Below are positions 724 to 5,010 of a stretch of 34,685 bases of DNA, piece by piece. The notes under the pieces were generated by a model, which saw only the letters and a program-made list of their open reading frames with translations, did no database searches and was not told the origin of the DNA. The DNA comes from Phycisphaerae bacterium (GTDB lineage Bacteria > Planctomycetota > Phycisphaerae > UBA1845). The stretch is taken from assembly GCA_029260025.1 (NCBI GenBank), contig JAJDDZ010000209.1, forward strand, positions 1 to 34,685, given 5' to 3'. Position numbers and translations under genes: made by a program. Position 1 is the stretch's first letter. The number at the start of each line of letters is the position of its first letter.

Positions 724-1332
724 CTACTTCTGCTTCTCGCCCTCACCCTTGAGTGAGCTTAGCTCCGCCCGAAGGCTAGCGAGCTTATCAAGCTCCTTGC
801 GATGCTCAGCCTCGGCTTCCGCCTCGATGAGTCGGTCAATGTCGGCGTCCGAAATCACTTCGCTATCGCTGCTCATCTCCGCATCCTGGGCTGCGACGTC
901 TTCGACGGTATCGAGGAACATATTCATCCGCTCCTCCATCGTCTGCGACTGAACCATCGCTTTTTCCCAATCCGCCTGCGTTTTGACAAGGTCTGTCTCA
1001 CCAAAAAGCTTGCCGATTTCGCTGGCCATCATCCCCATCGCGGAGGCAAAGTCAGCCGACGCCTCAGCCTGCTTCTTAATTAGCAGGGCATTTTTAACCG
1101 AAAGCAGTTGCCGCTCAAGCATCTTACGAATCGTTGCGGTCTTCTTCAGCGAGTTGCGAATGAACGCATACTGATTCATATCGCCGATTTTCTTAGCGTG
1201 CTGGGCGTTGCGGATGAACTCGTCCTGGAACTTACCTTGTTCCCGGATAGACTTCTCGATCCGCCGAATCCCCTGCCGGATTTTGATATCCCGCTCGATC
1301 CGCCGTTCCTCTGCCGATTTGAAAAGACCCAT
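724..1332 (-). CDS. Coiled-coil protein, putative ESCRT-III/Snf7-like (paralogue A)
   Basis: 202 aa: basic helical N-terminus (MGLFKSAEERRIERDIKIRQGIRRIEKSIREQ...), long helix with IRNSLKKTATIRKMLERQLLSVKNALL, 'ASAMGMMASEIGKL...WEKAMVQSQTMEERMNMFLDTVEDV', acidic C-terminus ending in ELDKLASLRAELSSLKGE. This resembles the CHMP/Snf7 layout. Confidence 0.55.
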   Translation of the reverse strand: MGLFKSAEERRIERDIKIRQGIRRIEKSIREQGKFQDEFIRNAQHAKKIGDMNQYAFIRNSLKKTATIRKMLERQLLSVKNALLIKKQAEASADFASAMGMMASEIGKLFGETDLVKTQADWEKAMVQSQTMEERMNMFLDTVEDVAAQDAEMSSDSEVISDADIDRLIEAEAEAEHRKELDKLASLRAELSSLKGEGEKQK

Positions 1333-1428
1333 ACGCTTTCTTTCTGCTAATCACATTGCGAGGCTGATGTGCATTCGTCGCGATAAACGCGCCGGCACCG
1401 AGTTTCATCACTCGCTATCTTGAATTTG

Positions 1429-2034
1429 CTATTCCTCTGGCGCAGCGTGCTTCTGCCGAACAGACTTATCCGCCTCTTCAAATGCTTCCTTCGCGTCCTC
1501 GATCGTTCCCGCGTCCATCTTATCCCAAATGTCGAGTACGGTATTTCCAGCCTCGCCCAATGAGCCGCCTTCTTCGTCAGCCGTCGCACCAACCGCCAGA
1601 ATTTCGTCCAGGCGCTCCTGATAGACTTCCGTACGGACCGAGTCCGATTCGATCAATTTCCCAAGACGTAGTAAGTCACCCTGACTCACAAGCCCCAGAC
1701 TACTAGAAGTACCAGCCCGCTCCGCATTCTCGCGAAGCATTCGCAAACGAGAAACCGTCAGCATCTCTTTGCTACGAATGTTAAGCTGCCGAGCAAGCAT
1801 CAGTTGCTCGGTCGTCTTGAACTCGAATTCCTGTGCAAGCGCACGACGAAGCTCAGGCGTCTTCTCGACAGATCCCCGCTCAAAAAGAGACTGCTTATTC
1901 GTCGCGATCTTGGTGATTTTATTCAAGAGCTGCGTACGGTCCTTCTCCAAAAGAAGCTCCTGCCGCCGCAACTCACTACGCGTCATACGCGAAAGTGGTT
2001 TCTTTCGTTTCAATAACCACTCAAGAAATGCCAT
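1429..2034 (-). CDS. Coiled-coil protein, putative ESCRT-III/Snf7-like (paralogue B)
   Basis: 201 aa: basic alpha1/alpha2-like hairpin (KDRTQLLNKITKIATNKQSLFERGSVEKTPELRRALAQEFEFKTTEQLMLARQLNIRSKEMLTVSRLRML), acidic C-terminus. Shares the MLxRQL motif with neighbours. Confidence 0.5.
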   Translation of the reverse strand: MAFLEWLLKRKKPLSRMTRSELRRQELLLEKDRTQLLNKITKIATNKQSLFERGSVEKTPELRRALAQEFEFKTTEQLMLARQLNIRSKEMLTVSRLRMLRENAERAGTSSSLGLVSQGDLLRLGKLIESDSVRTEVYQERLDEILAVGATADEEGGSLGEAGNTVLDIWDKMDAGTIEDAKEAFEEADKSVRQKHAAPEE

Positions 2035-2076
2035 GTAACATGCTTTCGTTTTGCAAAGGTATCCGAATCGCAGACT

Positions 2077-3549
2077 TTAAGAAGCCTCCGGACCCGCCTG
2101 GTCGCGCTCTGGTTCAACTTGAGTAGGAGGCAATTCCTCAATAGGCTCTGTCGAATCCACCACCGCCGAATCTGATTCCTTGACCAAAGAAGCCTTCTCG
2201 CTCTCCTTCGAAACCGGCCCAGGCGCTGGAGCCTCTGCAGCCTTAACGTCATCACCCTCAAACTCTTTCAAAATCGCAAGCTCGTCCGCGCTAACCAATG
2301 ACGCTTCCAACCCAGTCTCCAAGCTCCCCACAAGCGCCGCGTCAGCGTTAAGCGTCTCAAGCATTTCTTCAGCTTTCACCGCGTTCTCGGTTAGCTCTTC
2401 CGTATCCGGAAGTTGAGCAATCTCACCTTGTTGAATCAAAGTCAGGTTATGAATGTCGGTGCTGATAATGTTGATCTGCTGATTAAGCATCCCAGCCGTC
2501 GTGTTTTGCCGTGCAATGTCCTTGCGAAGTTGTGCAACTTGCGCCGCGAGTCGACGACGCGGAACCGAAGACCCAGCCGCCTTCCCATCCGCAACCAACC
2601 CCGCCTCTTTTACTTCCAACTTCGTAATATCGTCATAAATCCGATCACGCCGCTGCGAAAGCGCAGCCCGCCGCTCGGATAGCATATTAATCTTCTCGGC
2701 TTCGTTTCCTTCACCGGAAAAAAGTCGCCGCACCCTGTCGATCATATTCATCGATCGTTTTCCTCCCTGCTGCTCCGCCGCTCCGCGGTAAAGCAGGAAT
2801 TCTCCACCTTTTTTCGCAACCCTCAACTCTGGATCATCGGCGGCAACCTTCTCGAACCCCTCTTGGACAACGTTTTCCGGGAGATTCGCTTCTTTCGCCA
2901 GTTGTGAAACCGAAATACCGCCAGTCAATAGGTCCGTGCTCCGATCCGCGATTATCTCCCGAACCCGCTCTACCTTTTGCTTCGACCCTTCCGGATCAAA
3001 TATTTTGAGCACACGCGGGTCAACGTTCTCGCCGCTAGCCGTAGCCTTCCAGCCGCCCATACCGTCCGGTTCAACAAGAACAACCGTCGAGTTTGCAGTA
3101 TCAAGTTTCGCACTCCGCGCTTCTTCCGTAAAACCAGTCGGCGCACAAATACCAATCAAATGCGGCGACCGCCGATCAGTCAGGAGCTTACGAACATGAT
3201 CGCCCAGCTCTCCAAGTCCGATTGGACCAGCGCTTCCGCTCTTGGCAAACTCATCCAAGGGAGAAAGAACCGATGCAATGGCAACGCCCGTTCGCTTTCG
3301 CCAAAAAAGCATCTTTCGCGCAAATCCCTGGAGAACGATCTTCCGGTTAGACGGCAATGATTTAAGTTTGTCACGATCGTACACCCGGTTCGCCGCCAGT
3401 AGCGCCCGCAGCCGATCCGACTCATCGTCATCCGCACGTTTCCAATGCGAACCCTTCAGATCTTTCCCCTTCGCGTCCTCCAGGTTCGAGTCAACGCCAG
3501 ATAGAAAGTCCGTCTCGAATTGCAGTGCTTTGCTCGCGTCAGTTCCCAT
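2077..3549 (-). CDS. Multidomain protein: N-terminal alpha/beta-like region, central winged-helix-like segment, C-terminal Snf7-like coiled coil (paralogue C)
   Basis: 490 aa: 'DLLTGGISVSQLAKEANLPENVVQEGFEKVAADDPELRVAKKGGEFLLYRG' reads as a wHTH; the C-terminal half 'AEKINMLSERRAALSQRRDRIYDDITKLEVKEAGL...RRRLAAQVAQLRKDIARQNTTAGMLNQQINIISTDIHNLTLIQQ' parallels paralogue B; acidic/Pro-rich tail. Confidence 0.5.
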   Translation of the reverse strand: MGTDASKALQFETDFLSGVDSNLEDAKGKDLKGSHWKRADDDESDRLRALLAANRVYDRDKLKSLPSNRKIVLQGFARKMLFWRKRTGVAIASVLSPLDEFAKSGSAGPIGLGELGDHVRKLLTDRRSPHLIGICAPTGFTEEARSAKLDTANSTVVLVEPDGMGGWKATASGENVDPRVLKIFDPEGSKQKVERVREIIADRSTDLLTGGISVSQLAKEANLPENVVQEGFEKVAADDPELRVAKKGGEFLLYRGAAEQQGGKRSMNMIDRVRRLFSGEGNEAEKINMLSERRAALSQRRDRIYDDITKLEVKEAGLVADGKAAGSSVPRRRLAAQVAQLRKDIARQNTTAGMLNQQINIISTDIHNLTLIQQGEIAQLPDTEELTENAVKAEEMLETLNADAALVGSLETGLEASLVSADELAILKEFEGDDVKAAEAPAPGPVSKESEKASLVKESDSAVVDSTEPIEELPPTQVEPERDQAGPEAS

Positions 3550-3671: not shown

Positions 3672-3938
3672 TCACGACCGTCGCGCAACAAGCTTCGTCC
3701 CGCACTGACTACAGTAGCTCGCCTCGCGATTCTCTACTTTTCGACACCCTTCACGCGGGCACACCAGTCGCTCACCGCTGCCAGAGAAAGTATTCCGCCT
3801 TCCGAACACCAACCCGCAGGCAAAGCAAACCCCCCGCCAGACCGTGTGCAGAACGCCAAATACAAAGGCAGTGATCCCAAGCACAAGTACGATTGCAATG
3901 ACGAGCAGGTTCGCGGACATCGTCGTTCCTCGATTCAC
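3672..3938 (-). CDS. Small membrane-anchored zinc-ribbon protein
   Basis: 88 aa: TM helix (LLVIAIVLVLGITAFVFGVLHTVW) then CFACG...CPREGCRK...YCSQCGTKL. Confidence 0.6.
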   Translation of the reverse strand: MNRGTTMSANLLVIAIVLVLGITAFVFGVLHTVWRGVCFACGLVFGRRNTFSGSGERLVCPREGCRKVENREASYCSQCGTKLVARRS

Positions 3939-3945
3939 CGAGCGA

Positions 3946-5010
3946 TCACGTCAATCGCCCCAGATCCTTTCCACAAGAGATACAAAACCGGTCGCTATAA
4001 TGCACAACCGATTCGCAAGAAGGACAACTCGGGACCGACTCCACCAGCTGATGTCCGCACCGAATACAAAACTGATCCGTCGGCTCCACAGTCATCTCGC
4101 ACGCAGGGCACGCTCTTCCATTTTTCCCAACCCTCGCCCTTCTCACAAAAGCAGGCAAAGGCGGAATCGTAGCATCGACGTGTTGACCCCGGCTTGTCTC
4201 CGGCGAAAGCGCAGCCAACATCTCCTCCGCAGAGGTAAACCGCTGCTCAAGTCGTGTGTAACAACGCCTCACCACATCATCAAGCCATGAAGGAACCTCA
4301 CTCCGCAGTTTCCCCGGAAGATCAAAACCCTGTGGCCTCTCCCCAGTGAGAAGCTCAAACAAAATCACTCCGCAAGAGTAAAGATCGCTCCGCCCATCAA
4401 CGTCCGATCCCTGCTTCTGCTCCGGCGACATATACGCCCATGTCCCCGCAATACTTTTTCCATTTTCCGTCAGCACGCTACCGCTTTGCATCAGCGATTG
4501 CGTGACATTTCCACTAACAGACCCAAGCCCAAAGTCCGTTACCTTCACGCAATGTTCGCTCAGTTCATCAAGACGCGAAACGGGCAGCGTCAAGAGTATA
4601 TTTGCTGGCTTAACATCCCGATGAACAATCCCGGCCGCGTGCGCGCTCGCAAGCGCCCCAAGAATCCCCCGAACGACAACAATCGCAGACTCAATCGGAA
4701 ACGCTGCCCCAGCGTGGTCGATCGCCTCCCGTAGCGACGGACCATCGATGTATTCCATGATCAGGTAAGGCGGGTCGCCGTACGGGTCCATATCGATCGC
4801 CCGCACGATGTTCGCGTCGTCCAACCCATGAATCGCGACCCCTTCGCGCTGAAGATTACGAACATATTGTGGGTCAGTTGGGATCTTAATTGCGACGACT
4901 TGGTCAAGCACGTGATGGCGCGCTCGCCAAACTTCGCCAAAGCTTCCCGCACCGACAACACGGTCAAGCAAGTAGTTATTGATTCGATCGCCTTCACGAA
5001 GCGCAGACAT
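3946..5010 (-). CDS. Serine/threonine protein kinase with two C-terminal zinc ribbons
   Basis: GAGSFGEVWRA glycine loop, VAIK, IVHRDVKPANILL catalytic loop, VTDFGLG, APE-like MSPEQ; C-term CPACEMTVEPTDQFCIRCGHQL and CPSCESVVHYSDRFCISCGKDL. Confidence 0.93.
   Translation of the reverse strand: MSALREGDRINNYLLDRVVGAGSFGEVWRARHHVLDQVVAIKIPTDPQYVRNLQREGVAIHGLDDANIVRAIDMDPYGDPPYLIMEYIDGPSLREAIDHAGAAFPIESAIVVVRGILGALASAHAAGIVHRDVKPANILLTLPVSRLDELSEHCVKVTDFGLGSVSGNVTQSLMQSGSVLTENGKSIAGTWAYMSPEQKQGSDVDGRSDLYSCGVILFELLTGERPQGFDLPGKLRSEVPSWLDDVVRRCYTRLEQRFTSAEEMLAALSPETSRGQHVDATIPPLPAFVRRARVGKNGRACPACEMTVEPTDQFCIRCGHQLVESVPSCPSCESVVHYSDRFCISCGKDLGRLT

Follow-up and report, generated by a model that had tools for sequence, protein, structure and literature searches.

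Gene organization and conservation of the cluster

The window (the whole stretch of DNA analysed here, 34,685 nucleotides of a Phycisphaerae contig) contains five genes that lie in the order K, Z, C, B, and A on the minus strand, separated by gaps of 7 to 122 bases (Table 1). The open reading frames of A, B, and C, to which a sequence-only reading had drawn attention, were found exactly as described there, and every motif that it had quoted was present. Gene A was encoded in 81 of 100 related genomes, mostly Phycisphaerae represented by metagenome-assembled genomes, with identities of 59-90% and no internal stops. Conservation of the cluster, a check that the same reading had proposed, was also evident: K, C, B, and A had the same order and strand across the Phycisphaerae contigs, with K as the conserved head of the cluster and with Z usually present too, generally between K and C. 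The wide occurrence of A without stops and the maintained order and strand show that A, B, and C are genuine genes of a conserved operon-like cluster in Phycisphaerae.

Table 1. Genes of the cluster and their predicted products
Gene	Position	Strand	Length (aa)	Product
A	724..1332	minus	202	ESCRT-III superfamily (CHMP/Snf7-like) protein
B	1429..2034	minus	201	Coiled-coil protein, homologue of the C-terminal unit of C
C	2077..3549	minus	490	N-terminal conserved domain, coiled-coil unit, and acidic tail
Z	3672..3938	minus		Small zinc-ribbon protein, hydrophobic segment at the N-terminus
K	3946..5010	minus		Ser/Thr protein kinase with a C-terminal double zinc ribbon

All three proteins had been described as helical hairpins with basic N-terminal halves and acidic tails. 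The charge distribution was confirmed by the net charges of A (+12 in residues 1-90 and -15 in the rest, that is, a basic core and an acidic tail), B (+9/-11), and the C-terminal part of C (+8/-24). The hairpin was found in A and B; for C the description holds only in part, being confined to a coiled-coil unit at residues ~263-430.

At two loci, L070 (7974-8216) and G046:C23 (83892-84131), a second partial copy comprising the C-terminal 80 residues of A lies near the full gene. Two further loci with planctomycete-type clusters bear the titles Proteobacteria (L074, JAFMMO010000127.1) and Alphaproteobacteria (L059, JANQQE010000024.1), and the match coordinates in L074 are identical to those of G256, which belongs to the same phylum as the window's genome. 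Judging from the clusters and the shared coordinates, both titles are probably wrong.

Protein A is a member of the ESCRT-III superfamily

A search of Pfam with A of the window alone gave a weak, colinear match to Snf7 (residues 17-150, 7.5 bits, E 4.1). A Clostridial homologue, which matched A over nearly the full length with about a third identity, gave an E-value of 1.7e-5 for the same family; both proteins are under the Snf7 cut-off. The wide family alignment (A7) extends to Clostridia and to planctomycete classes besides that of the window; Snf7 was matched by 30 of its 32 members (best E 3.7e-6), and every other Pfam family was matched by at most 3 of the 32. The top PDB matches of the profile built from this alignment were CHMP3 (2.2e-4), Snf7 (0.013), and CHMP2A (0.058), and a narrower profile recovered CHMP3, Snf7, CHMP2A, and CdvB among its eight matches. 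The predicted ESCRT-III kinship of A rests on the family, the protein of the window being weak in Pfam by itself.

The AlphaFold2 model of A (pLDDT 74, pTM 0.51) consists of helices at residues 7-49, 52-109, 116-157, and 162-200, of which the first two form the long alpha1-alpha2 hairpin and the last two are shorter. When this model was compared with the PDB using Foldseek, ranks 1-17 were all occupied by chains of the ESCRT-III superfamily; the CHMP2A-CHMP3 polymer was at the top (prob 1.00 for CHMP2A and CHMP3), with modest E-values (best 4e-3). For A, the structure and profile check suggested by the sequence-only reading revealed the ESCRT-III helix topology and favoured no unrelated coiled-coil family. 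The agreement of Pfam, the PDB profiles, and Foldseek over nearly the full length of the protein supports the assignment of A to the ESCRT-III superfamily, nearer to CHMP/Snf7 than to PspA/Vipp1.

The C-terminus of A carries a conserved L..(R/E)L..LK tail, a leucine-spaced helix that resembles MIM1. The hydrophobic spacing of MIM1 was present in 57 of 70 A tails against a mean of 4.8 in shuffled tails, these being related sequences, and the full motif occurred in only 1 of the 70.

Some other candidates were set aside. A match of A to CodY (E 0.002; 3 of 32 members in the wider set) was taken as a chance helical match, and a generic coiled coil was rejected on the specificity of the Foldseek and PDB profile results. 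A role in anti-phage defence was also rejected: PADLOC gave no match for A, B, or C, and the IetA matches of the ATPases described below were mostly on the AAA region.

Proteins B and C

Alignment of profiles using hhalign yielded a probability of 99.1% (P 6e-19) for B versus the C-terminal unit of C, with 0.2% for the reversed controls, and iterative searches merged B with the same unit; these results show the homology of B and this unit. The values for A versus B and C, on the other hand, were 1.4-5.8% (2.9% for A and C), near those of the reversed controls (0.4-1.2%). The three proteins had been read as paralogues of one another; only the pair of B and C was upheld by this all-versus-all comparison, and a direct paralogy of A with B and C was set aside as unsupported. 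No ESCRT-III chain was found in the PDB search with the B profile, so that neither this search nor hhalign connected B and C with A or Snf7/CHMP. Of the proposed ESCRT-III (Snf7)-type set, A therefore stands, by its fold, its Pfam Snf7 matches, and its PDB profile; B and C are at most candidate members.

The model of B (pLDDT 79), for which the alignment included C-terminal parts of C, has helices at residues 3-8, 19-56, 60-109, 118-154, 161-175, and 181-196. A long hairpin comes after a short helix at the N-terminus and before the shorter helices, an ESCRT-III-like order. Foldseek returned for this model an unspecific mixture of helical bundles and BAR domains; archaeal CdvB2 took ranks 5, 16, and 19.

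The N-terminal and C-terminal parts of C were aligned as separate sets. Residues ~1-262 form a separate conserved domain that ends in a winged-helix-like segment, and the coiled-coil unit homologous to B is followed by an acidic tail. The first 260 residues matched no Pfam family; positions about 200-251 of the N-terminal profile showed a weak match (E about 1) to FeoC-type proteins, which are winged-helix proteins, and on these grounds we infer a putative winged helix in this domain. Other planctomycete classes encode the N-terminal domain and the coiled-coil unit in separate genes, and B is present there in duplicate. In L117, a gene (1610-3436) upstream of these split genes encodes a 608-aa protein that gave only a weak PQQ/propeller-like match and no confident Pfam assignment.

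A linked MIT-AAA ATPase

Most relatives have a gene for an AAA ATPase beside A, as do Clostridia and planctomycetes of other classes. A same-strand ATPase gene was found in the fetched stretch for 86 A genes, 44 of them in the 300-base class; a few of the 44 are overlapping frames, and since the loci overlap, these numbers count places and not independent events. In several planctomycete classes the two genes were often <300 bp apart, and in Clostridia they lay within about 4.5 kb of each other. Among 35 genomes of the order, each of the 28 with A also had the ATPase, and each of the 7 lacking A lacked the ATPase too. For independent genomes, such a distribution would arise by chance once in about 6.7 million, but these genomes are not independent; both states, A with ATPase and neither, occurred within one family (f5). 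The genome of the window has the ATPase orthologue on another contig (C88), where the contig ends within the gene, at the Walker A motif.

The ATPase consists of an MIT-like N-terminal domain, an AAA domain of the Cdc48/Vps4 type, and a Vps4_C helix. In the PDB, the N-terminal profile had full-length matches to the MIT domains of SKD1/VPS4B (E 5e-4, positions 12-72 of 78) and VPS4A; calpain-7 and a katanin-like MIT domain from archaea were matched over shorter stretches, natural TPR proteins matched only half of the domain, and single ATPase sequences gave no direct match to Pfam MIT. Vps4_C was detected at 22.0 bits (cut-off 21.3) in the ATPase of L032, the first scanned, and more weakly, at 15 bits, in a second ATPase type from other planctomycete classes, which carries the Vps4-like segment 'SRFEKKILIPLPD'. 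In the alignment, the Clostridial copies were without the Vps4_C-like tail region. PDB searches placed the AAA domain closest to Cdc48 D2, and in a small tree with few references, archaeal ones being absent, the two types (AAA1 and AAA2) each formed a deep clade separate from Vps4 and Cdc48. By its MIT-like domain and Vps4_C helix, the ATPase would be of the Vps4 type, although it does not group with Vps4 in that tree. The linkage of such an ATPase strengthens the ESCRT-III reading of A beyond what the sequence-only reading had claimed.

Other arrangements were seen around A. The second, distinct MIT-AAA ATPase lies near A in other planctomycete families (L113-L115, L117, L119, L120, L122-L126, L128, and L129), and where both ATPases were seen they often flank A. 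In Clostridia, the A homologue shares one neighbourhood with another protein of the A family, a Band-7/SPFH protein, an FtsK/SpoIIIE ATPase whose N-terminal domain is A-like, and the AAA ATPase, whose N-terminus is helical. The fusions of an A-like (ESCRT-III-like) domain to FtsK/SpoIIIE lie next to the A homologue in these bacteria, Pumilibacter muris among them (L075:4080-5981, for which Pfam was checked, L076:3916-5835, L077:4065-5978, and L078:4134-5996). A further A-family gene directly precedes the MIT-AAA gene at L075:9577-10158, L077:9674-10258, and L078:8449-9030.

Comparison with known systems and alternative explanations

Protein A shares with the ESCRT-III proteins (CHMP3/Vps24, CHMP2A, Snf7/CHMP4, archaeal CdvB, and Asgard ESCRT-IIIA/B) the helical hairpin fold, an MGLF-type N-terminus colinear with that of CHMP3, and the basic core and acidic tail, and its locus shares with theirs several helical subunits and an adjacent MIT-AAA ATPase gene. 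It differs in being bacterial, in the sub-threshold Pfam scores of the window protein and its Clostridial homologue, in having partners (B and C) of no demonstrable ESCRT-III kinship, and in the kinase within the cluster and the FtsK fusion in Clostridia. The bacterial ATPase likewise resembles Vps4/CdvC in its MIT-like N-terminus, AAA domain, Vps4_C helix, and linkage to ESCRT-III, but departs from them in an AAA domain nearest to Cdc48 D2, in the separate AAA1 and AAA2 clades of the small tree, and in the Clostridial copies without the tail region. Taken together, we consider it very probable that A is a bacterial CHMP/Snf7-type subunit, distinct from PspA/Vipp1, that works in a machine of the ESCRT-III/Vps4 type.

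How such a set came to be in bacteria is a sub-question compatible with this explanation. Lateral transfer of a CHMP and Vps4 set from archaea or eukaryotes would agree with the closeness of A to CHMP3 rather than PspA and with the reporting of ESCRT-III and Vps4 otherwise from archaea and eukaryotes (PMC10936438). We regard it as rather unlikely, however: the ATPases form deep clades that are not nested with eukaryotic Vps4 in a tree of few references and no archaeal ones, and the set occurs, in differing architectures, across Clostridia and many planctomycete families.

It is improbable that A, B, and C are generic coiled-coil scaffolds with convergent hairpins and that the ATPase is a Cdc48-like AAA protein with a TPR-like domain belonging to an unrelated complex. 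The weak E-values of single proteins, the TPR half-matches and missing Pfam MIT match of the ATPase N-terminus, and the unspecific matches of the B model would fit such scaffolds, but three independent methods converge on ESCRT-III for A, and distant bacteria link A to an MIT-like AAA protein, which in planctomycetes has a Vps4_C helix.

The identification of A as a divergent PspA/Vipp1 (IM30) protein, a member of the known bacterial ESCRT-III branch that serves in envelope stress without a Vps4 motor, was rejected as highly improbable: PspA and ESCRT-III have a common fold (PMC8281802) and Vipp1 chains were among the Foldseek matches of the A model, but A fails the family model (PspA_IM30 matched 2 of 42 members, best E 0.2, and Snf7 matched 18 of the 42), PDB profiles bring up CHMP/Snf7/CdvB and not PspA, several genomes hold both A and a PspA, and A has an MIT-AAA partner. 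The eukaryote- or archaea-like character that had been proposed for all three proteins was thus borne out for A. PspA was not detected in the window's own genome.

A possible membrane-remodelling machine

The Vps4 MIT domain binds C-terminal motifs of ESCRT-III subunits and extracts these subunits from the polymer (PMC7615534). The basic core, acidic tail, and leucine-spaced helix of A match this scheme of a Vps4 substrate; read most simply, A would form a membrane-remodelling polymer that has B and C as partners and is turned over by the ATPase. In our CHMP/Snf7-type model, A would form polymers on the cytoplasmic membrane, to which B and C would probably contribute as co-polymerizing, nucleating, or recruiting subunits; C may act through its winged-helix-like domain in the manner of CHMP7, CdvB, or ESCRT-II. 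The MIT-like domain of the ATPase would grip the C-terminal tail of A, and subunits of A would then be pulled out at the expense of ATP, leading to constriction, scission, or repair. The linked kinase K may regulate the machine.

FtsZ was not found in 38 planctomycete genomes, with or without A. The replacement of FtsZ was rejected as the sole explanation of A, since FtsZ is missing also from planctomycetes that have no A. Nevertheless, the absence of a detectable FtsZ and the fusion of an A-like domain to an FtsK/SpoIIIE ATPase in Clostridia make cell division or abscission our leading guess for the process, albeit a tentative one; the remaining probability falls to the repair of membranes or the shaping of internal ones. 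The role in endomembranes or budding proposed by the sequence-only reading is conjectural.

According to reviews, the pairing of ESCRT-III with Vps4 is absent from bacteria, and the accessible part of a 2025 review (PMC7618577) contains nothing on bacterial members that alters this picture. A description of such a set from Clostridia or planctomycetes was not found in the portion of the full-text literature that was searchable, bioRxiv and most subscription journals lying outside it. The planctomycete membrane-coat-like proteins (PMC2799638) are another proposed eukaryote-like membrane machinery of these bacteria; the abstract of that paper describes them as beta-propeller/alpha-helical-repeat proteins, which sets them apart from A, B, and C.

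That planctomycetes and Clostridia have a conserved CHMP-like protein linked to an MIT-AAA ATPase is directly relevant to the timing of the origin of ESCRT, and a bacterial set of the ESCRT-III/Vps4 type would provide a system for studying the ESCRT machine in bacteria. For some planctomycetes without FtsZ, the A system is a concrete candidate for membrane cutting or shaping. Several bacterial lineages may even own a complete, ancient, multi-subunit ESCRT-III/Vps4 machine, possibly used for division or scission in FtsZ-less planctomycetes, a view to which we give nearly, though not quite, an even chance; if it is true, ESCRT systems are not confined to archaea and eukaryotes.
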